Part shown: positions 7,278 to 45,700 of the stretch, one piece after another
Position numbering within the stretch: position 1 is the first letter of the stretch
How the letters are laid out: the number at the start of each line of letters is the position of its first letter
DNA from: an uncultured Clostridia bacterium
GTDB lineage: Bacteria > Bacillota > Clostridia > Oscillospirales > Ruminococcaceae
Length of the DNA: 48,360 bases
Assembly: GCA_947626755.1 (NCBI GenBank)
Contig: CANQTP010000015.1
Span: forward strand, 1 to 48,360
Reading direction: 5' to 3'
Position numbers and translations under genes: made by a program
The notes under the pieces: generated by a model
Database searches by the model: none
What the model saw: only the letters and a program-made list of their open reading frames with translations
Told to the model about the DNA's origin: nothing

Positions 7278-9029
7278 ATGAAATTGAGGAAACTGCTTGC
7301 GGGCATAACCGCAGCGGCTTTGGCAGTGTCTGCCATGGCGTTTTCAAGCTTGTCCGTGAGTGCGGCAGAAGAGGCAGATGTTGTAACAGTAGCAAGCAAC
7401 GTTAAAGTGGAAGGCACTTTTGTAGCTAATGGTGAATGGGGTTCTGCTTGTAATGTTACATTTGAAGGTTATAGCTACAATACACCTTTAAAATGCGACG
7501 ATTACACAAAAATTGAGATGGACGTTAAAATAAGCAGTCTTGGAAATGCTGAGAGTATTAGTCTTTTTATTAATACCGGTGACAATGATAAAGAAAATCC
7601 TACCAAATGGGTTGCTACAGCCGGAACAGCTAAAGATGGAACTTTGACACTTGATTTAACTAAAGATGAGCTTAAAGGCAAAATATTTAGTGCTATTGGG
7701 TATCAGTTAAGCACATCGACAAATGATGTTACTGATGCTTTTAATGGTGATATTACAATTAATTCTGTAAAACTTTACAAGAAAGCTGCACAAGAACCTG
7801 AAAAGACCCCCGAAGAGGAAGAAGTTGAACCAATAAAAGGTACTTATGTGTTTTATGTTGTTAACGACAATAAAGACCCCAATGGTGAAGAGCTTAAAGA
7901 TGGCGACAAAATGTTGTGGAAATGGGTTGCCAGTGATCCGAAAGAAATAGAAATAGGCGGAGAAGCTGTATCAGCTGAATGGAGTGCTATTGGTGAAACT
8001 GAGGATATAAAGAAAGATAATTACCATGAGATCTGTAATGAAGGAATTCAGTTAAGCTCAGATGATACAACTCTTATAGGAAAAACAATCACTATTGAAG
8101 TTGCAGACCTTGAAGTCGGTGGCGAAAAAAGAACAGTAACAAATCCTTTGACCGCTGTAGCTGCTGAAGGAGAAAAAGATGACGGAACGAAAATTGCACA
8201 ATGCGCGTTCAGCATTAAGCTTCAGACAGCTGATTTAGGTAAATCTCTTAAGTGCAGCATAAAAGCATCTGTAAAGGCAGCAACTGAAAATCCTTCCACC
8301 GGCGGCGAAACTACCGACAACGGCGGCAGCAGCGGAGATAATACAACAGCTTCTGCTCCTACAGTAAGCAGCAACAAGCATCAGGGCGTTGGTATGCCTC
8401 CTGTTGTTATTGATCAGAAATCCGCACCCGCAGCGAGCGCAGGCGAAACAGCAGCTGCAAGCGGAAGCACTTCCGTTACACTCGGTGATTCAACTGTAGT
8501 TTCCAAGGACGTTATTGATTCCGTTTCGGGCAAGGACGCAGAGTTTAAACTCGCAAACGGTGCTTCATGGGAGATCGCAGCAGCTGACGCTGCAAAGGCT
8601 GAGGGCATGGATCTTGGTATCACTCTCAACACCACAGCAGCAACAGCAGATCAGATCAAAGAAGTTGCAAAGGATAACGATACATTCCAGTTCTCACTTG
8701 CGTACAGCGGTGACTTCGGATTCTCCGCAGTAGTAAACATTCCTGTTGACGCTAAGTACAACGGCAAGTATGCAAATCTCTACTGGCTCAACGGCGGCAA
8801 GCTCGAATTCATCGGCAGCTCCAAGGTTGAAGGCGGCATTGCAGACTTCACAATGAAGCACGCTTCCGATTACGTTATCGTATTTGACGATGAAGCTTAC
8901 GGCGAGGACGTTTCCTCAGGCGCAGGCATTTACGAAGAAAGCGAAACTTCTGCCGCTCCCGTTGCAGTAGTTGTAACATTTGCAGCACTTGCAGTATCGG
9001 CTGTAATTCTCAAGAAGAGAGTTTTCTGA
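7278..9029 (+). CDS. Secreted, C-terminally membrane-anchored surface protein
   Basis: 583 residues from the ATG at 7278, which follows an AGAGGGA site; the frame is open 36 nt further upstream but with no site there. A signal peptide (about 1-29, ending SVSA-AEE) is followed by a beta-rich region with DYTKIEMDVKIS resembling carbohydrate-binding or Ig-like folds, an acidic EPEKTPEEEEVEP linker, a second beta-rich region, a Gly/Ser/Thr linker and a conserved C-terminal domain (about 400-550). The end is a hydrophobic helix (VAVVVTFAALAVSAVILKK) and short basic tail, so the protein should stay in the membrane and face outside. No LPXTG or catalytic motif is seen. Codons in the first half are more AT-rich than in the second, suggesting domain replacement. 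Function unknown; adhesion or glycan binding is a guess. A broken copy of its tail lies at 19094. Confidence 0.85.
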   Translation: MKLRKLLAGITAAALAVSAMAFSSLSVSAAEEADVVTVASNVKVEGTFVANGEWGSACNVTFEGYSYNTPLKCDDYTKIEMDVKISSLGNAESISLFINTGDNDKENPTKWVATAGTAKDGTLTLDLTKDELKGKIFSAIGYQLSTSTNDVTDAFNGDITINSVKLYKKAAQEPEKTPEEEEVEPIKGTYVFYVVNDNKDPNGEELKDGDKMLWKWVASDPKEIEIGGEAVSAEWSAIGETEDIKKDNYHEICNEGIQLSSDDTTLIGKTITIEVADLEVGGEKRTVTNPLTAVAAEGEKDDGTKIAQCAFSIKLQTADLGKSLKCSIKASVKAATENPSTGGETTDNGGSSGDNTTASAPTVSSNKHQGVGMPPVVIDQKSAPAASAGETAAASGSTSVTLGDSTVVSKDVIDSVSGKDAEFKLANGASWEIAAADAAKAEGMDLGITLNTTAATADQIKEVAKDNDTFQFSLAYSGDFGFSAVVNIPVDAKYNGKYANLYWLNGGKLEFIGSSKVEGGIADFTMKHASDYVIVFDDEAYGEDVSSGAGIYEESETSAAPVAVVVTFAALAVSAVILKKRVF

Positions 9030-36696: not shown

Positions 36697-36915
36697 CTCA
36701 GACTGCGGGATAATATGCAGAAAAACAGCGGTATAAAAATATTATCTGTTCAAGGCATTAATGTCAATGTTTCCGCAGATGATGTTTATATGGATCATAT
36801 CAGAGATTTTGATATTGCGGCTATTTTTGCAAATTCGCGGGACAACGCCATTGATGCCTGCGACAAAGTAGATGAAAACAAATATATCACAATGGATACT
36901 TTATTTTTAACATAA
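36697..36915 (+). pseudogene. Remnant of a GHKL-type (AgrC/VirS-like) sensor kinase
   Basis: From about 36715 the frame reads NSGIKILSVQGIN, then DFDIAAIFANSRDNAIDACDKV, which is the N-box region of GHKL ATPases of peptide-sensing kinases, and NKYITM. It stops at 36913, before the G-boxes, and the membrane part and dimerisation helix are missing. A broken quorum-type kinase next to an ABC exporter suggests loss of a signalling partner. Confidence 0.65.
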
Positions 36916-37185: not shown

Positions 37186-38337
37186 ATGAATTTGATATTT
37201 AAAAATATAATGAAACTTTTTAAATATGAAAAACTGGTGTTTTTTGTAATGCTGATATGCGTTTTCTTTTCGGCATTAATATTAAATTTTTCATACGGAC
37301 TATATCAGAATTATCGTGTTCAGAAAAGCGAATCTGAAATTTCACTTAACGAAATCCGCCCTGAAATTTCGGAAAATTCTACGCTTTCACGCGGACTTCT
37401 TGAAAATTATCTCAGCGTGATAAGTGATGAAACGCTTAATAAAATGAACATCATATACTGCGCTGCCGAATTTGACGGATTTAATCCTGAAAATTATGCT
37501 TATTCCATGATGAGATTCTGCATTAAAGACGGAGAGTATTGTTCATCAAAATATGTGGCAGACATTTGGGACAAGCAGGGCTTGATGGTATCGGGAAGAT
37601 TTTTTAACAACGAAGAAGAAAAGAACGGCAAAGATGTTGCAATTGTAGGCAATTACGGAAGCGGTTGGAATGAGCAAACGTTAAGCATAAAAAACGGTGA
37701 AAACAGCATAGAGCTTTTTGGACGAAGTTTTCAAGTGATAGGTGAACAGAGAAGCGTCGGAACGCCGATAGTTCCGTTTTTAGCAGTTCCGGCAGATACA
37801 GAGATCGTTCAATTAGCATTTTCATTTGAATCAAATATAACAAAAAGTGATTATGATGAACTTAAAATGGCAGCCGAGAAAAGCATACCGGGCATACTTA
37901 TATTTGAAGATATTGAATTTCCCGATACAGAAGCAATTTATTTATATAACAACATTATGTTGATCTCAGTGTTTATTGCAGTATTGTCGGTAATGAATTT
38001 TGCAATGCTTTATCATTTTATTCTCCAAGAACGAAGCAGAGATATTGCGATCTTCAGAATTTGCGGCTGCAAAATTTCAAAAGCTGTTATGATCTATCTG
38101 GGCGAATGTTTTGTTTTAAGCGTACCGATTTATATTATCGGAATGATCTTGTATTCATATATTATGCACAATGTTTTAGCAGGCTTATTCCCGTATATGG
38201 AAGCTGCATACAGCAAAATAATTTATGCGGTCATTTTCTTGATTTATTTTATAATAATGGCAATAATTTTAAGTATATTAATATATAGCTGCGTAAGAAA
38301 AAGTATTATTGATGAATGGAAAGAAGGCGGCAGATAA
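37186..38337 (+). CDS. FtsX-type ABC transporter permease (first)
   Basis: 383 residues. N-terminal helix (about 17-40), a large outside domain (about 45-250), then three C-terminal helices (about 260-285, 305-335 and 345-370), the MacB/FtsX layout. FYCAAEF-like and GRFFNNEE in the outside part are seen but not diagnostic. AAAAGGAAG precedes the ATG. The stop overlaps the second permease start (TAATG). Export or mechanical release of a peptide is the usual job of such systems; the substrate is unknown. Confidence 0.88.
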   Translation: MNLIFKNIMKLFKYEKLVFFVMLICVFFSALILNFSYGLYQNYRVQKSESEISLNEIRPEISENSTLSRGLLENYLSVISDETLNKMNIIYCAAEFDGFNPENYAYSMMRFCIKDGEYCSSKYVADIWDKQGLMVSGRFFNNEEEKNGKDVAIVGNYGSGWNEQTLSIKNGENSIELFGRSFQVIGEQRSVGTPIVPFLAVPADTEIVQLAFSFESNITKSDYDELKMAAEKSIPGILIFEDIEFPDTEAIYLYNNIMLISVFIAVLSVMNFAMLYHFILQERSRDIAIFRICGCKISKAVMIYLGECFVLSVPIYIIGMILYSYIMHNVLAGLFPYMEAAYSKIIYAVIFLIYFIIMAIILSILIYSCVRKSIIDEWKEGGR

Positions 38338-39572
38338 TGGGTGCATTTATAAGAACAGCTGTAAATACGATCAAAAAGAATATTACAATGAATATAATTA
38401 CCACATTGCAAATTTCAGCAGTATTTGTCATAACGGTAATTATGGTTTCCGCAGTGTGCGTCAGATACCGATGTTATACTCCGTTCAGGGATTATTTTGA
38501 AGGTAACGGTTTGTTTTGTATATTTTCGGTAGAGGCTTACACAGGTAATATTGATAAAGTATATGATGTTATTGAAGATACAAATGAACTTATGTCATAC
38601 TTGCATGGGCCTGAAAAAATTGTCGCTTGTCACCATTTAAGTGCATATGCGGAAGTAAACGATCAGATCTGCGACATTCAAGGTCTTAGCTATGATGATG
38701 AAATTATAGACCGATATGAACCTGAATTGAGCTCCGGCAGGTGGATAAGCACAGATAAAGAAGCAGATATGATCGAAGCAGTCGTTTCTGAAAATGATTA
38801 CGGCTGGAATGTCGGAGATATTATTCAGATCGTAATGCTCAATACAGAAACATCTGTAAAAAGAGATGTAAAGATCGTCGGGATCTTAAAGGAAAATACA
38901 AAAATACCCGGATTGTTTTCAGCGCGTATCGGAACGGATACATATAATTTATTTTATTATCCTTACAGCTATGAATATGAGGGAAAGCCTTTACTTCTTT
39001 TTTCATATTCGCAGCTTGCCGGCTTGGAAAACGCTCCTTTGCAGGGAATATATTCAAGTACTTTGATCCGTTATGATGATTCCGTAAGCGCGGAAGAGAT
39101 AAAACAGGATCAGCGGCTCATGTCAACAATGGGATGTGTATTTTCAACCGATCTGAAAGAACTTGATAAAAACAGCAAAGACTATCTTCACAGGCATATA
39201 TATGATCTCTTGCCGATCATAATTGTATTGCTTATTTTAGTTGTTGTCAGCAGTATAAGCAGTTCGGCTCTTTCTACAAGAAAAAGATTAAGAGATTACG
39301 CAATATATTATGTAACAGGACTGCAATGGCGGCAATGTATTCTTATTAATTTATTGCAGTCGGTGATAATTATTATATCCGCGTTTATTTTATCGATCGT
39401 TTGCGTGGCAGTTCTCAGATATACAAATTTAAGCGATATGTTTTATATTTCGTGGAATAAATATATTTTATTTTCATTTGCTGGAATAACAGTTTTTTAT
39501 ATTATAATATCCATGATAATGCCATTAATAATGATATTTAATGTTACACCAAAACAAATTCTTACAAAGTGA
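38337..39572 (+). CDS. FtsX-type ABC transporter permease (second)
   Basis: 411 residues from ATG 38337, which overlaps the previous stop; the frame is open 21 nt upstream but inside the first gene. Same layout: N-terminal helix (about 22-42), outside domain with YEPELSSGRWIS and GDIIQIV, and three C-terminal helices (about 290-315, 338-365 and 378-400). Together with the first permease it makes a heterodimer around the ATPase encoded next. Confidence 0.88.
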   Translation: MGAFIRTAVNTIKKNITMNIITTLQISAVFVITVIMVSAVCVRYRCYTPFRDYFEGNGLFCIFSVEAYTGNIDKVYDVIEDTNELMSYLHGPEKIVACHHLSAYAEVNDQICDIQGLSYDDEIIDRYEPELSSGRWISTDKEADMIEAVVSENDYGWNVGDIIQIVMLNTETSVKRDVKIVGILKENTKIPGLFSARIGTDTYNLFYYPYSYEYEGKPLLLFSYSQLAGLENAPLQGIYSSTLIRYDDSVSAEEIKQDQRLMSTMGCVFSTDLKELDKNSKDYLHRHIYDLLPIIIVLLILVVVSSISSSALSTRKRLRDYAIYYVTGLQWRQCILINLLQSVIIIISAFILSIVCVAVLRYTNLSDMFYISWNKYILFSFAGITVFYIIISMIMPLIMIFNVTPKQILTK

Positions 39573-39584
39573 GGAGAGTAAATA

Positions 39585-40247
39585 ATGATACAAGTAAAAA
39601 ATATTTCTAAAATATATAATAAAGGAAAATCCAACGCTTTTCAGGCATTGGATAATATCAGCTTTTCCGTAGAAAAAGGCGAATTAGTTTCAATAGTCGG
39701 AACGTCAGGAGCAGGAAAATCCACGCTTCTTCATATTCTCGCCTGTATTGATAATTATGACGCGGGAGAATATTATATAGATAATGTTCTCATAAAAAAT
39801 ATAAGCGAAAAAAGGCTTGCGGAAATACGCAACATGAAAATCGGGCTGGTCATGCAGGATTTTGCCTTGGTCGATGATTTTACCGCAATTCAGAATGTAA
39901 TGCTTCCGCTGGATTTTTCAAAAGAAAAACGCTCTGACAAAAAAGAAAAAGCTATGGCGGCTTTAAGATCTGTCGGCATGGATAAGTTTGCAAATAACCT
40001 TTCAAATAAACTTTCGGGAGGTCAGAAACAGCGTACTGCAATTGCAAGGGCAATTGTAAACGATCCTGATGTTATTTTAGCCGATGAGCCGACAGGTGCG
40101 CTTGACAGCAAGACCGCGTCTGAAATAATGGAGCTGTTTAAAATGCTTCATAATGACGGCAAAACAATTATAATCGTTACACACGATAAGGAAATTGCCG
40201 CACAATGTGAGCGGATCATTGAAATTTCCGATGGAAAGATAGTATAA
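39585..40247 (+). CDS. ABC transporter ATP-binding protein (MacB/LolD type)
   Basis: 220 residues. Walker A GTSGAGKST (about 39-47), Q-loop in GLVMQDFALVDDFTA, signature LSGGQKQRTAIARA, Walker B VILADEPTGALDS, and the His in IIVTHDKE. GAGGAGAG precedes the ATG, 12 nt after the second permease. LADEPTGALDS is typical of the MacB/LolCDE and BceA exporters. No peptide precursor gene is seen nearby. Confidence 0.95.
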   Translation: MIQVKNISKIYNKGKSNAFQALDNISFSVEKGELVSIVGTSGAGKSTLLHILACIDNYDAGEYYIDNVLIKNISEKRLAEIRNMKIGLVMQDFALVDDFTAIQNVMLPLDFSKEKRSDKKEKAMAALRSVGMDKFANNLSNKLSGGQKQRTAIARAIVNDPDVILADEPTGALDSKTASEIMELFKMLHNDGKTIIIVTHDKEIAAQCERIIEISDGKIV

Positions 40248-40259
40248 AATTATATACTT

Positions 40260-40298
40260 ACAGCCCTTGAAAAATTATTTCGAGGGCTGTAAAATTTT
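40260..40298 (+). terminator. Terminator of the ABC exporter operon
   Basis: 15-bp-class stem, ACAGCCCTTGAAA against TTTCGAGGGCTGT (40260-40272, 40278-40290; one G-U), 5-nt loop, then AAAATTTTT. 40299-40440 is AT-rich with nothing recognised. Confidence 0.82.
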
Positions 40299-40440: not shown

Positions 40441-41070
40441 TCAGAATAATTGCGCCAACATTTTATAATACTTTCCTGTCTTTTCATATTTTCCTGTTAA
40501 GCTGAACACAGCCTTATGCTTTCCCGGGATCTGATAATTTCCGTAATTTTCATACCTGTTTCTGAGAACAATATCACCAACACTTATATTGTTATATTTA
40601 TGACCTTTATATTCAAAATTTACTCTCCACTTTTTTTGATCGTGTTCATTAACTATGCTGATAATGATATGATCGATCTCAGCTAAGATCAATGATTCTC
40701 CTGTTATTTCATTATCGTAAAGTGATCTTTCATTGTTTACAAATAAGAATTGAGAAGTACTTAACGGACACTTGGCAAATGCTTCTTCATCACTCATGGA
40801 TCTGATCTTTTCCCAGCAATATTTCTTATCATATAAGTAGTTTTCTGATTGTACATCTGTAGGCGCAGGCGTGCATTCAACAGCTGCTAAATCAAATATT
40901 TCTGCTTGTGTTCCGTTCCGGAATGTCAGATCAGATTTTGATACAGCTCCCTCGCCTGATCTGTCATCAGAAACCAATCGTATCCATTTACCGTTGCTGA
41001 TATCAATTCCTGCAACACAAAAGCCGTTGATCTTAGCACTTTTTGTCATAATAATTATTTCCTTTTTCAT
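40441..41070 (-). CDS. Dual OB-fold domain protein (last gene of the DUF488 cassette)
   Basis: 209 residues from ATG 41070 (site AAAGGACG); the frame is open to 41112 without need. N-terminal KKEIIIMTKSAKINGFCVAGI and NGKWIRLVS, and later VGDIVLRNRYENYG and GKHKAVFSLTGKY, match what I know of the dual OB-containing (DuOB) proteins found near conflict-system genes. OB folds bind nucleic acids or nucleotides; the role here is unknown. It follows the second DUF488 gene by 16 nt and is convergent with the ABC operon. No catalytic motif is apparent. Confidence 0.65.
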   Translation of the reverse strand: MKKEIIIMTKSAKINGFCVAGIDISNGKWIRLVSDDRSGEGAVSKSDLTFRNGTQAEIFDLAAVECTPAPTDVQSENYLYDKKYCWEKIRSMSDEEAFAKCPLSTSQFLFVNNERSLYDNEITGESLILAEIDHIIISIVNEHDQKKWRVNFEYKGHKYNNISVGDIVLRNRYENYGNYQIPGKHKAVFSLTGKYEKTGKYYKMLAQLF

Positions 41071-41086
41071 ATATAACGTCCTTTCT

Positions 41087-41530
41087 TTATAAATGAATGA
41101 TCCTGACTTCATTGAATGCGTCTTTAAAATAATCAGCTATCAATCTCCGATGGCATTTTTCCGGAGTCGGTTCGCTGCACAATAAACATATTGAAATATT
41201 ATCATTGTAGGCTGATTTTATATATTCTGTAATTTTTCTGCCCTGCATAGTCTGAGCGAACTCGGCTTCATATTCTTCCCAATTGATCTGTTTCTTTTTA
41301 TATCTTGTTAATGTAGATCCGTTCGGCGCAAAATTCAGATCGTGTTTGTATCTGATATGACATATTTTATCCAGAAAAAACTCAATATCGGGATACTTGG
41401 AAAAGCCTGCAAGCTGTGATGAGTTATTTAATCTTACATCGACAACAACGTCGATATTATTATCATTAAGAATTGAAAAAAACTGTTTGGCTGTTTTTTG
41501 GGTAAATCCGATTGTATAAACATTAATCAT
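41087..41530 (-). CDS. DUF488 family protein (second)
   Basis: 147 residues. Starts INVYTIGFTQKTAKQFF, then VDVRLNNSSQL, and near the end the family's paired-cysteine block LLCSEPTPEKCHRRLIA. GAGGAT is 4-5 nt before the ATG at 41530, which overlaps the stop of the first DUF488 gene by 8 nt. The fold and chemistry of DUF488 are not settled; the conserved Cys, Arg and His suggest an enzyme. It is shorter than its neighbour and differs strongly, so this is an old pair, not a recent duplication. Confidence 0.85.
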   Translation of the reverse strand: MINVYTIGFTQKTAKQFFSILNDNNIDVVVDVRLNNSSQLAGFSKYPDIEFFLDKICHIRYKHDLNFAPNGSTLTRYKKKQINWEEYEAEFAQTMQGRKITEYIKSAYNDNISICLLCSEPTPEKCHRRLIADYFKDAFNEVRIIHL

Positions 41531-42140
41531 AGTTATCCTCCTCGTTATTGTCGATCCTGTAGCCAATTTTTTCGTTTTGAAATTTGTAACTGTTTTCGAT
41601 CATTTCCTCGGCAGACAATTGTTCGCCAAACAAAGCCAATTGATCACGGTCAGGATAATACATATCAAGAAGTCTTGCTTCAATATCGGATTGTGTGATG
41701 ATATGCCCGTCTGATAAGATATGTCTGACTGAAATTCCGTTATCAGAAAAAGCCTTACCGACCATTATGGTTCTATGACAATTTATAGGATCTTTCTCGG
41801 AACACATAAGTACAAATTTATATCCTAAAGGAATGGCATTTATTATTTTTTGCATTCCATCCAGAAAAGCCTTTGATCTTGTAAACATAGAAAAATCAAG
41901 GTATCCGTTTGGATAATAGGTTTTATCATCCTGTCTTGCTCCGAATTCGCTGTTATAATTCCGATATATTATTCCGTTTTTTTGTAAAGTATCGCATAAT
42001 AACGGTTTATTATAATCCTGATAAAATTTTGAGAACGGCGAACTCCTTACATCGATCAAGCTGTTTATATTGTGCTTTTTTAAATCTTTAATAAAATCAT
42101 CTATTGCAAAGCCTGCGTAGCCTATTGTAAATATTTCCAT
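41523..42140 (-). CDS. DUF488 family protein (first)
   Basis: 205 residues from ATG 42140 with GAGGT 10 nt upstream. Opens MEIFTIGYAGFAIDDF, with LIDVRSSPFSKF, then the block LMCSEKDPINCHRT, as in DUF488, and a C-terminal extension (about 150-205) with GHIITQSDIEARLLDMY. Reads GARQDDKTYYPNG in the middle, the usual DUF488 sequence around the second active-site loop. First gene of the three-gene cassette, with its own promoter and a leader of about 100 nt. Function unknown. Confidence 0.88.
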   Translation of the reverse strand: MEIFTIGYAGFAIDDFIKDLKKHNINSLIDVRSSPFSKFYQDYNKPLLCDTLQKNGIIYRNYNSEFGARQDDKTYYPNGYLDFSMFTRSKAFLDGMQKIINAIPLGYKFVLMCSEKDPINCHRTIMVGKAFSDNGISVRHILSDGHIITQSDIEARLLDMYYPDRDQLALFGEQLSAEEMIENSYKFQNEKIGYRIDNNEEDNYD

Positions 42141-42247
42141 TTTGATATATACCTCGATCTGAAATAAACTGTATATCACTTTCTCTGCACGAAAAATTTA
42201 TTTCTATTAAAATGTATCATATGCTCCGATATATTTTTTGTAATTGC

Positions 42248-42276
42248 ATTATATCATATTTTGTTTAAAATGTCAA
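42248..42276 (-). promoter_or_regulatory. Promoter of the DUF488-DUF488-dual-OB operon
   Basis: TTGACA (42276-42271) and TATAAT (42253-42248), 17 nt apart, minus strand. Confidence 0.9.
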
Positions 42277-42615: not shown

Positions 42616-43200
42616 CTATTTCTTTCCGTCAATGTAGTACGTGGCTTCCATGTCCGCAGTGCTGAGCGCAAAAGCAAGAGGGAACATTTCAAACGCCTTT
42701 CCGACCTGTCCCTTTTCTTCTACAGAGGAAAATCCCATATGATACCTTATTGCAAAAGCCTCTTCTCTGCTGAGACGCATGAACCCTGTTATTATGTATA
42801 CGGATTTTTCACCATGTCCGTAAGGAAGCTTGTCGTCTGTAGTGTAATAGGGAACTTTCTCCCAGACGCCCTGTTCGTTTTTGGCGTTGCGGTAGTCCGT
42901 CTTGTACAGATTGACCTTGCATATGTCGTGCAAGAGCGCGCATATGGCAATAGTTTCTTCCGATGCGGTAAGTCCGTAAACGCTTTTTACCCTTTCGCGG
43001 GAAAGATAATCTTTCAGACAATGATAAACATTCAGGCTGTGTTCCAGAAGTCCGCCTTCATATGAACCGTGGAACCTTGTGCTTGCAGGCGCTGTGAAGA
43101 AATCACTATGCGGCGAAAGAAGATATTCAAGCAGTTTGTCCGCTCCGTCGCGGGTGATATTTTCCTTGTATATATCCAGAAATTCCTGTTTAAGATCCAT
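42616..43200 (-). CDS. HD-domain hydrolase
   Basis: 194 residues. Metal-binding HD pattern: His in GGLLEHSLNVYHC, HD in CALLHDICKVN, and Asp in LSTADMEA. This is the phosphohydrolase fold of the YfbR/HDIG type. GGCGGG lies before the ATG. It starts 2 nt after the beta-mannosidase stop, so the two are co-transcribed. Substrate unknown; a nucleotide phosphohydrolase is most usual for such a size. Confidence 0.85.
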   Translation of the reverse strand: MDLKQEFLDIYKENITRDGADKLLEYLLSPHSDFFTAPASTRFHGSYEGGLLEHSLNVYHCLKDYLSRERVKSVYGLTASEETIAICALLHDICKVNLYKTDYRNAKNEQGVWEKVPYYTTDDKLPYGHGEKSVYIITGFMRLSREEAFAIRYHMGFSSVEEKGQVGKAFEMFPLAFALSTADMEATYYIDGKK

Positions 43201-43202
43201 TT

Positions 43203-45665
43203 TTACCCGCCTTTCACAAGATCGTAATAGCTCTTTACCTTGATATTTTTTTCAAGTTCGCGCACGGTAAGATTTGCGGGAACGCCCGCCTTGCTTACAA
43301 GAACTGAATGAAGCTGTCCGTGGAGATCGAACCAGTTGTCCCTGAACGGACAGTCAAAGTCGTCAAAATCAAGATAAACGCCCTTTGCAAAGTTCTTGCT
43401 CGTTACGGAAAATCTGTAGAGTTCTCCTACCTGATCCGCTTTTACCTCTATTTCGGGAGGGAGAAATCTGAACTCCTTAGGCGGTACGAACATATACGTT
43501 CCGCCTGATATAACAGCGTTATTCTTTACGAGCGAATATTCTATATAGCAGTTCCTGTACATTTCGGGAGTAACTTTTGTAAGCTCGGGAGTGAGTTCCA
43601 GAAAGCTTGCGGCAATTGTCGGCGGAACGGCAATATCCAGTGCGCCGTGAGAAATTATCGTGGTATCGTTCTTTCTTACGCGCCAGCGTATGCTTCCCGA
43701 GAAACCTTCGGTATTTTCATTTGTGATGCAAACCATCAGCTTTTCCTTGTCGCGGTCGTCTATGGAGCAGAGTATGGGAGCATAGAATCTTTTTGCATAG
43801 TAATGCAGTGCCTTCCAGCGTCCGAAATAGTCTATTGACGACCATGAGATCACAGGATTGCTGTCGTTGAGCTGCCAGTAAAGCGAACCCATGCAGACGC
43901 CTCTGTTGCGGCGGAGATGTTCAACGCATATTTTCACCGAGTCCGCCTGAACGAGCTGCGATGCGTATACAAGATCTTCAAAAGTATACGGATAATGAAC
44001 GTTCTGCGCAAGATAGTAAAGCAGCTTTTCATTTCCCGCATTGCATTTCTGATGCGCTTCCATAACGGGCGACATAAGATTAAGATCGTCCTTTCCCGCA
44101 AAGCTGCGGACAGTTTTCATGCAGGGGATCGACTCAAATCCGAACTCGGAACAGAATCTGAACCTGTAGTTAATGAAATCGGACGCAGGACGGAAGTTGT
44201 GCCACATTGCCCAGTAATGCGTATCTCCCTTTACGTCCGAGCTGGGATCGGAGAATCCGCCGCCCGATGACGGTGAGGACGGGTGATAATATCTTTGCGG
44301 ATCGTAATGTTTTACAACATTCGGGATAAGTTTTTCAAATATCCGCAGATAGCCCTGCTTCTGTTCTTCTGTGACAGGAATCCCCCAGTACATTATTGCG
44401 GATTCGATCTCATTGTTGCCGCACCACATTGCAAGTGAAGGGTGATTTCTTAGCCGCTTCACGTTGTCTATGAATTCCTGCCTGATATTTTTGGAAAAAT
44501 CGGTATTTGCATCGTATACCGCGCAGGCAAAGGCAAAATCCTGCCATACAAGAATGCCCAGCCTGTCGCAGATGTCGTAAAAGCTGTCATCGGGGTAGAT
44601 ACCGCCGCCCCAGACGCGGATCATATTGAAATTCGCCGCCGCGCAGCTTTGCAGCAGACGTTTTGTGCGTTCAAGCGAACGGTTCGGAAGAATATTATCC
44701 TCGGGGATATAGTTCGCTCCCATAGCAAATATTTTAATGCCGTTTACCTTGAAGCAGAATTCTTCCCCGACCGCATCGGGAGCACGGCAGACTTCCACCG
44801 TTCTGAGACCTATGTTGAATTCCTTTATATCAACGGGTTCGCCGTCACTATAAAGCATGGCGCGTATCATATAAAGCGCCTGCTTGCCGTATCCTCTTAC
44901 GTTCCACAGTACGGGCGAGGAGATAACGCATTCATTGGTGATGGTGTCTCCGCTGCAATCAACGGACATAAGCGCTTCTTCGCCGTCGGGGGAAGTGATG
45001 TTTATGTCAAGTTTCAGCTTATCGGAGCTTATGTCGGTCAGCTTGGTCTCAAAGCTGAGACGGACATTCCCGCCGTAATGGTTCTGACGGACATAAACGC
45101 TGTCTATCCGTCCGCCTTTTACGCATACAAGTTCCGCGCCGCGCCATATGCCGATGTCGGGGATCGCAGGTCCCCAGTCCCAGCCGAACATATAGTGCGC
45201 TTTACGTATATGCGGGAAGCCGTCAAGGGTGGAATCCACGCCCCAGAGGTGATTTTTTTCCTGCTGCTCCTCAATATATTTTGTAGGAGAAAAGATCCTG
45301 ATCGTTACTTTGTTTATCGGAGCGATAAGATCCGTAACGTCAAATTCATAGGTGCGGTGCATATTTTCGGTATGTCCCACAAGATTTCCGTTAAAGTACA
45401 CCTGCGAAACGGTATCAATGCCGTTGAATCTGAGAAGGAACCTGTCATAATTTTCTATGCTTTCGTCAAAATTGAGATCGTATTCAAAAATATAGTCGGA
45501 ATCGGCTATTTTAAGTAAGTTGTACTGATTTTCCCCGAAGTACGGGTCGGGGATCTTCTTTGCTTTGATGAGAACGTCATACACGGACACGGGCAGATGT
45601 GACGAAAAGGTTTCCTCGCCGTCCGCTTTTCTGACGTTCCAGTTTCCGTCCAGTTTGATTATCAT
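43203..45665 (-). CDS. Beta-mannosidase, glycoside hydrolase family 2
   Basis: 820 residues from ATG 45665 (site GAGGAGG, 9 nt upstream). Cleaves terminal beta-mannose from manno-oligosaccharides or N-glycan cores. Layout: sugar-binding jelly-roll (about 1-180, with the beta-mannosidase stretch FGWDWGPAIPDIGIWR), Ig-like domain, TIM barrel with acid/base Glu419 in WCGNNEIE and nucleophile Glu507 in CSEFGFES, and C-terminal Ig-like domains. No signal peptide, so it acts in the cytoplasm on imported sugars. Own promoter at 45701-45729. Confidence 0.95.
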   Translation of the reverse strand: MIIKLDGNWNVRKADGEETFSSHLPVSVYDVLIKAKKIPDPYFGENQYNLLKIADSDYIFEYDLNFDESIENYDRFLLRFNGIDTVSQVYFNGNLVGHTENMHRTYEFDVTDLIAPINKVTIRIFSPTKYIEEQQEKNHLWGVDSTLDGFPHIRKAHYMFGWDWGPAIPDIGIWRGAELVCVKGGRIDSVYVRQNHYGGNVRLSFETKLTDISSDKLKLDINITSPDGEEALMSVDCSGDTITNECVISSPVLWNVRGYGKQALYMIRAMLYSDGEPVDIKEFNIGLRTVEVCRAPDAVGEEFCFKVNGIKIFAMGANYIPEDNILPNRSLERTKRLLQSCAAANFNMIRVWGGGIYPDDSFYDICDRLGILVWQDFAFACAVYDANTDFSKNIRQEFIDNVKRLRNHPSLAMWCGNNEIESAIMYWGIPVTEEQKQGYLRIFEKLIPNVVKHYDPQRYYHPSSPSSGGGFSDPSSDVKGDTHYWAMWHNFRPASDFINYRFRFCSEFGFESIPCMKTVRSFAGKDDLNLMSPVMEAHQKCNAGNEKLLYYLAQNVHYPYTFEDLVYASQLVQADSVKICVEHLRRNRGVCMGSLYWQLNDSNPVISWSSIDYFGRWKALHYYAKRFYAPILCSIDDRDKEKLMVCITNENTEGFSGSIRWRVRKNDTTIISHGALDIAVPPTIAASFLELTPELTKVTPEMYRNCYIEYSLVKNNAVISGGTYMFVPPKEFRFLPPEIEVKADQVGELYRFSVTSKNFAKGVYLDFDDFDCPFRDNWFDLHGQLHSVLVSKAGVPANLTVRELEKNIKVKSYYDLVKGG

Positions 45666-45700
45666 TAAGCTGTTCCTCCTCTGCAAAGTTTTACAATTAA

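Follow-up and report, generated by a model that had tools for sequence, protein, structure and literature searches.

A conserved cassette of two DUF488 proteins and a tandem OB-fold protein in an uncultured Clostridia bacterium, possibly directed at nucleic acids

Cassettes made of two DUF488 genes and one gene for DuOB, a tandem OB-fold protein, have their closest described counterpart in PDC-M45, for which PADLOC-DB v2.0.0 holds one model per gene (PDC-M45B for gene 1, PDC-M45C for gene 2 and PDC-M45A for gene 3). PDC denotes a phage defence candidate according to the accessible part of PMC11514479. The open-licence literature contained no paper using the name PDC-M45 and none pairing DUF488 with an OB fold, and in those parts of it that were available no functional test of DUF488 or DuOB was found. 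DUF488 has been met in other settings: a DUF488-helix-turn-helix protein fused to an archaeal ParB-fold protein that binds CTP was described in 2025 (PMC12704722, available in part), and a DUF488 protein made up 27% of a culture-supernatant fraction that raised 5-hydroxytryptophan secretion, with no test of the protein alone in the part at hand (PMC9740157, available in part). For a further family, DUF4326, the processing of terminal phosphates has been proposed, with ADP-ribose or products of its breakdown as the substrates (PMC9503650, available in part). Here we describe a cassette of this kind in a contig of an uncultured Clostridia bacterium (GCA_947626755.1, CANQTP010000015.1), of which a stretch of 48,360 nucleotides (nt), hereafter the window, was analysed. 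The three genes prove to be conserved as a unit across many phyla, and we tentatively read them as a nucleic-acid machine.

The cassette and its promoter occupy these positions of the window:

41523-42140, minus strand: gene 1, DUF488 protein of type PDC-M45B, 205 amino acids (aa); Pfam PF04343, E 3.5e-15; PADLOC, E 4.8e-50
41087-41530, minus strand: gene 2, DUF488 protein of type PDC-M45C, 147 aa; Pfam PF04343, E 4.4e-20; PADLOC, E 1.5e-53
40441-41070, minus strand: gene 3, DuOB, tandem OB-fold protein of type PDC-M45A, 209 aa; Pfam PF22557, E 2.4e-41; PADLOC, E 4e-26
42248-42276, minus strand: sigma-70-type promoter, TTGACA-17-TATAAT with an extended -10 TG; 12/12 consensus matches

Genes 1 and 2 share 8 nt (41523-41530), an AGGAGG lies upstream of gene 2, and a 16-nt gap (41071-41086) separates genes 2 and 3. 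The best other promoter-like site between 40200 and 42620 scores at most 10/12 in a consensus scan, and weak promoter-like matches are frequent in this AT-rich interval (28 found vs 12.2 expected). An initial annotation of the stretch had reported the same gene order, overlap, gap and promoter, all of which were confirmed on the sequence. Its assignment of an OB fold to the third protein stands because of the Pfam DuOB match, which reaches 142.5 bits against a cut-off of 27 and covers positions 5-209 of the 210 in the profile; PF04343 gives 57.1 bits for gene 1 and 73 bits for gene 2 against a curated cut-off of 22.2. NCBIfam held no match to any of the three proteins. In PADLOC, a second candidate for genes 1 and 2, PDC-M19A, is weaker (E 1.4e-17 and 1.9e-16, respectively). 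One each of PDC-M45A, B and C stand adjacent on one strand in the window, as in the PDC-M45 gene set, and nothing was found that separates the two. The suggestion in the initial annotation that the system is undescribed is therefore ruled out by the PADLOC matches to all three genes; moreover, Pfam already contains DuOB.

Gene 2 was used as bait. Genome contigs yielded at least 571 confirmed relatives, of which the best 80 were examined, and 37 further relatives confirmed in virus-labelled contigs brought the set to 117 loci; their parts were called by applying profiles built in this analysis to the reading frames. The triplet was complete in 69 of the 80 genome loci, with the order gene 1-gene 2-DuOB in 55 and DuOB-gene 1-gene 2 in 7, while the remaining 7 had a diverged DuOB behind (2) or in front (2), or odd orders (3). 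Incomplete genome loci carried gene 2 with DuOB (4), genes 1 and 2 (3) or gene 2 alone (4), some of them at a contig end (L032, L052, L094). Among the virus-labelled loci 32 of 37 were complete, and in a thirty-third, L115, genes 1 and 2 are fused in one reading frame (7308-8441) with both motifs intact. At least three parts were present in 101 of the 117 loci, all 101 of them with the parts on the same strand, and 191 of 203 gaps measured 60 nt or less.

Since the search started from gene 2 and kept the 80 loci closest to the window's, more weight falls on the reverse test from DuOB. For this test, genomes were sampled from two phyla, that of a Calothrix genome and that of a Prevotella genome, and 45 match rows yielded 37 loci for examination, the two centres (G447 and G442), chosen as DuOB carriers, being counted. 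DuOB adjoined both DUF488 genes in 35 of the 37 loci, gene 2 only in one and neither in one; L178, counted among the 37, is the L030 locus, and excluding it leaves 34 of 36. A phylum was named for 79 of the 80 bait-derived loci, and these fall into 18 phyla, one of them archaeal. A quick tree of gene 2 showed 19 changes of phylum label against a minimum possible of 17 and so largely tracks phyla. The conserved three-gene system that the initial annotation had envisaged is borne out from both directions. Separately, in a locus titled Acholeplasmatales (L017, 8584-11155) the DUF488 pair is flanked by two DuOB genes.

The putative active-site blocks of the window's DUF488 proteins are CSEKDPINCHR (gene 1) and CSEPTPEKCHR (gene 2), and both proteins have a DVR motif; in our reading, C-x-E-x5-C-H-R and D-x-R are the motifs that define DUF488. 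The former is kept in 82/82 copies of gene 1 and 115/117 of gene 2, the exceptions being one truncated copy and one with CQR. In the gene 1 alignment of 86 rows (L005 and L018, the same place, both included; L002, L003, L007 and L009 left out; L001, L002 and L003 being the window's own cassette), the D-V-R, C, E and C-H-R columns are conserved in 86/86, one place being counted twice. The initial annotation had pointed to both CSE-x5-CHR blocks and thought that both proteins could be active; the blocks are confirmed, and motif retention indicates that both proteins are probably active. The CQR copy is a lone gene 2 (L065, 9965-10441), and the three other lone copies retain the motif; its change suggests that activity may have been lost without the partner genes.

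Structures were predicted with AlphaFold2 for genes 2 and 3 only, as single chains. The gene 2 model has a mean predicted local distance difference test score (pLDDT) of 94.1; in it, C118 ends a strand (113-118) and R128 begins a helix (127-138), so that the model shows the arrangement of strand-end Cys, putative anion-binding loop and helix-start Arg expected in the rhodanese-phosphatase superfamily. Its nearest neighbours, at modest scores, are phosphatases of the protein tyrosine phosphatase (PTP) type (PRL/PTP) and tetrapyrrole-type (diphthine-synthase-like) methylases. Features in common with the rhodanese-phosphatase superfamily are the DUF488 domain, an active-site loop with a leading Cys and a His-Arg, and these fold neighbours; the loop spacing in the cassette's DUF488 proteins is C-x9-R vs the C-x5-R of PTPs. 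RapZ appears at rank 12 of the Foldseek list for gene 2 (E 0.078) and not among the 50 VIA rows listed for it, an absence that excludes nothing. By sequence, no solved relative was found for gene 1, and the gene 2 profile gave chance-level matches only.

The DuOB model (pLDDT 97.0) is predicted to contain two OB-fold barrels in one chain, and its structural neighbours include a telomere-end-binding protein, RPA and HIN domains, mostly DNA binders, with RNA-binding OB folds also listed. RPA70 DBD-AB, POT1, the telomere end-binding protein and the HIN-200 sensors share the two-OB chain with this model. DuOB is set apart from these tandem OB proteins by an invariant Cys and Arg, a near-invariant Glu and the outcome of a phmmer search against solved chains, which gave no match. 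Over 97 rows, including seven diverged forms, Cys18 and Arg31 are present in 97, and Glu76 and Gly21 in 96. Judged from the alignment, conservation of the Cys, Arg and Glu exceeds the needs of a plain binding module; we offer this as an added observation, not seen elsewhere in a literature survey that lacked the likeliest source paper. In the one reverse-test locus where DuOB stands without either DUF488 gene, the protein falls below the Pfam cut-off and, by eye, Ser replaces the otherwise invariant Cys.

Several loci carry variants of the cassette. A DUF4326 protein fills the slot of gene 1 in 24 of the 37 virus-labelled loci, none of which has both DUF4326 and gene 1. Five of 15 plasmid records were opened, and the DUF4326 version was found in three of these five loci, on Acinetobacter, Leclercia and Moraxella plasmids; E. 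coli genomes had no near match to the DuOB-DUF488-DUF4326 cassette of the Leclercia plasmid, and a DUF4326 query in viral contigs led to nothing confirmed. All three DUF4326 proteins scanned have DUF4326 with a minimal SLOG (mSLOG) domain on its N-terminal side, in one case just under the mSLOG cut-off. SLOG domains handle nucleotides; a Pfam scan found no mSLOG domain in the cassette proteins of the window. The motif C-x-C-x-P-x2-C-H-G-D, present in 24/24 DUF4326 replacements, is similar to that of DUF488. Comparison of the profiles gave no significant join of the two as one family, and one DUF4326 protein matches DUF488-N3a weakly, at E 0.0042, which does not reach the cut-off.

DuOB varies as well. 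A diverged form occupies its slot in eight loci; hhalign of seven of these forms with DuOB gave a probability of 98.1 and E 1.2e-13, and of two that were scanned one lay above and one below the Pfam cut-off. In addition, the 117 loci hold 101 reading frames for DuOB, 16 of which are longer than 290 aa. Fifteen of these were scanned (L077 was left out): DuOB is joined to a PIF1-type helicase in four and to a RecQ helicase with RQC and HRDC in one, DUF1351 and WD40 repeats occur once each, Sipho_Gp157 in three (one above cut-off), and five show DuOB alone. The Pif1 and RecQ helicase fusions, together with the predicted fold of DuOB, favour the nucleic-acid direction that the initial annotation had proposed.

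The presence of DuOB is patchy. Among 21 genomes of the window's genus only the window's own has it, and in the class the count is 4 of 291, own included and one spurious; a match in class genome G220 (E 7e-4) was dropped as a DuOB after its reading frames had been inspected. In a sample of 292 genomes from the phylum of a Calothrix genome, DuOB matched 36, that genome included. A whole-genome search of the window's own genome revealed no second DuOB and no further DUF488 gene. A tblastn search of phage records at E 0.001 detected no DuOB, and a query of viral contigs with a single DuOB led to nothing confirmed. Around the plasmid copies, three of the five opened lie near cas1/csx16/csm6, a viperin gene, or a set with HORMA of the cyclic-oligonucleotide-based antiphage signalling system (CBASS); the other two lack these neighbours. 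The 129 genes flanking the virus-labelled copies (L095-L131) include 12 of the terminase large subunit family, 3 capH and 3 capP, and the terminase-like neighbours possibly mark a prophage cargo site.

The surroundings of the cassette in the window are as follows:

40258-40292, plus strand: terminator-like hairpin of the neighbouring exporter operon, the cassette's downstream border; 15-pair stem, then a T run
37186-40247: FtsX-type permease pair and ABC ATPase forming an exporter, convergent with the cassette; second permease below the Pfam cut-off
36715-36915: 66-aa GHKL ATPase fragment (PF14501), upstream of the exporter and about 3.5 kb from the cassette

Between 36 and 43 kb the 1-kb bins have a G+C content of 0.31-0.38, and the remaining bins of 30-48 kb one of 0.38-0.50. 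In agreement with the initial annotation, which had placed the cassette in an AT-rich stretch beside an exporter and a broken sensor kinase, these bins, the ABC and FtsX genes and the GHKL fragment were all found; the fragment is consistent with a broken sensor kinase. Among six genus relatives, similarity breaks off where the HD gene ends (window 42617-42629), and the order of the HD-domain and GH2 mannosidase-like genes (42616-45686) is kept in five. Because the relatives' similarity ends, and the AT-rich stretch begins, at the HD gene, we place the cassette in a variable stretch, where it may have been gained recently. A DDE_Tnp_1 transposase lies near the contig end (47391-48260).

Starting from the gene set, its co-conservation, the invariance of its motifs, the two model folds and the fusions, we favour, at slightly under even confidence, a nucleic-acid machine of DuOB and the DUF488 pair, likeliest on single-stranded DNA (ssDNA) or DNA ends and likely for conflict. 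DuOB would grip the substrate, ssDNA or a DNA end, through its two OB folds. As PTP/rhodanese-like thiol enzymes, the two DUF488 proteins would probably function as a pair, perhaps a heteromer, and would carry out phosphoryl- or sugar-directed chemistry on the bound end by way of the C-x-E-x5-C-H-R loop and D-x-R. In relatives, a DuOB-joined helicase would supply unwound strands, and a DUF4326 enzyme would substitute for one DUF488. Burroughs and Aravind, in 2023, reportedly predicted DNA-end processing in conflict systems. The likely purpose would be conflict with mobile DNA, be it of phages or of other kinds, as suggested by the entry in PADLOC, the carriage on mobile elements and the patchy distribution; a defence role is plausible but unproven, and its main alternative is DNA repair.

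Two results leave room for repair. In a flank test, 134 genes around 16 of the 80 loci (long contigs having been chosen) were compared with 133 farther-off genes of the same contigs, and PADLOC at E 1e-20 matched 93 families near the cassette vs 91 in the controls, families and not genes being counted; a finer per-gene test could differ. The excess in defence islands anticipated in the initial annotation was thus not borne out in this small test. Among 25 PADLOC names listed from each set, those near the cassette include PDC-M11A, PDC-M22A/B, PDC-S01, PDC-S02, RmrA and reverse-transcriptase models, and those in the controls GlgB, MkoA, type II methyltransferases and PD-T4-6. The second result is the gene 2 tree, with its largely phylum-following course. 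A repair or genome-maintenance accessory would be the same machine, trimming or repairing ends that have been damaged; helicases would be its natural partners. It would also suit the flanking Pfam families listed (25 of 116), which are mostly housekeeping with two McrBC matches, and the identity of RecQ and Pif1 as repair-type helicases. We nevertheless regard it as doubtful, though credible, given the accessory-like scatter of DuOB over its genus and class, the CRISPR, viperin or CBASS genes near three of five plasmid copies, the terminase-like genes beside virus-labelled copies and the listing as a defence candidate.

Alternatively, the cassette might defend by processing nucleotides or NAD derivatives, in which case DUF488 and DUF4326 would have small, phosphorylated compounds of ribose as substrates, while DuOB would serve as sensor or regulator. 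The proposal for DUF4326 on ADP-ribose terminal phosphates and the mSLOG that precedes this domain, with its nucleotide link, speak for such a role, but it is unlikely: the predicted fold neighbours of DuOB are mostly DNA binders, its fusions to helicases and phage-type proteins point to nucleic acid, and the window's version has no mSLOG domain. Very unlikely is a RapZ-like, RNA-directed regulator in which the DUF488 proteins would bind ligand and RNA without catalysis and DuOB would bind RNA. The RapZ match to gene 2 and the RNA-binding OB folds among the structure matches of DuOB agree with it, but the near-invariant loop Cys, Glu, Cys, His and Arg go beyond binding needs, and the helicases that accompany DuOB are of DNA type. 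That the genes are chance neighbours in one strain, the outcome on which the initial annotation would have abandoned its idea, has practically no probability left: DuOB is confined to its own genome among the 21 of the genus, but adjacency across 18 named phyla and in both search directions (69/80; 35/37) already refutes it.

Within the DNA-end reading, a more specific version can be formulated, which we consider quite improbable. Cys18, Arg31 and Glu76 of DuOB would make up an active site for covalent capture or opening of the sugar at a DNA end, and the end would then pass to the heteromeric DUF488 pair for removal or transfer of phosphate, all three proteins being thiol enzymes. Such a mechanism would resemble that of SRAP/HMCES proteins, which are unrelated to DuOB. 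The conserved Cys, Arg and Glu of DuOB offer a direct first target for mutagenesis. If the DNA-end reading is true, DUF488 and DuOB would be enzymes with a nucleic-acid chemistry new to assign, contained in three small proteins; if DuOB has the active site envisaged, the cassette would represent a new way of marking or destroying the ends of foreign DNA, to which helicases could optionally contribute as loaders.
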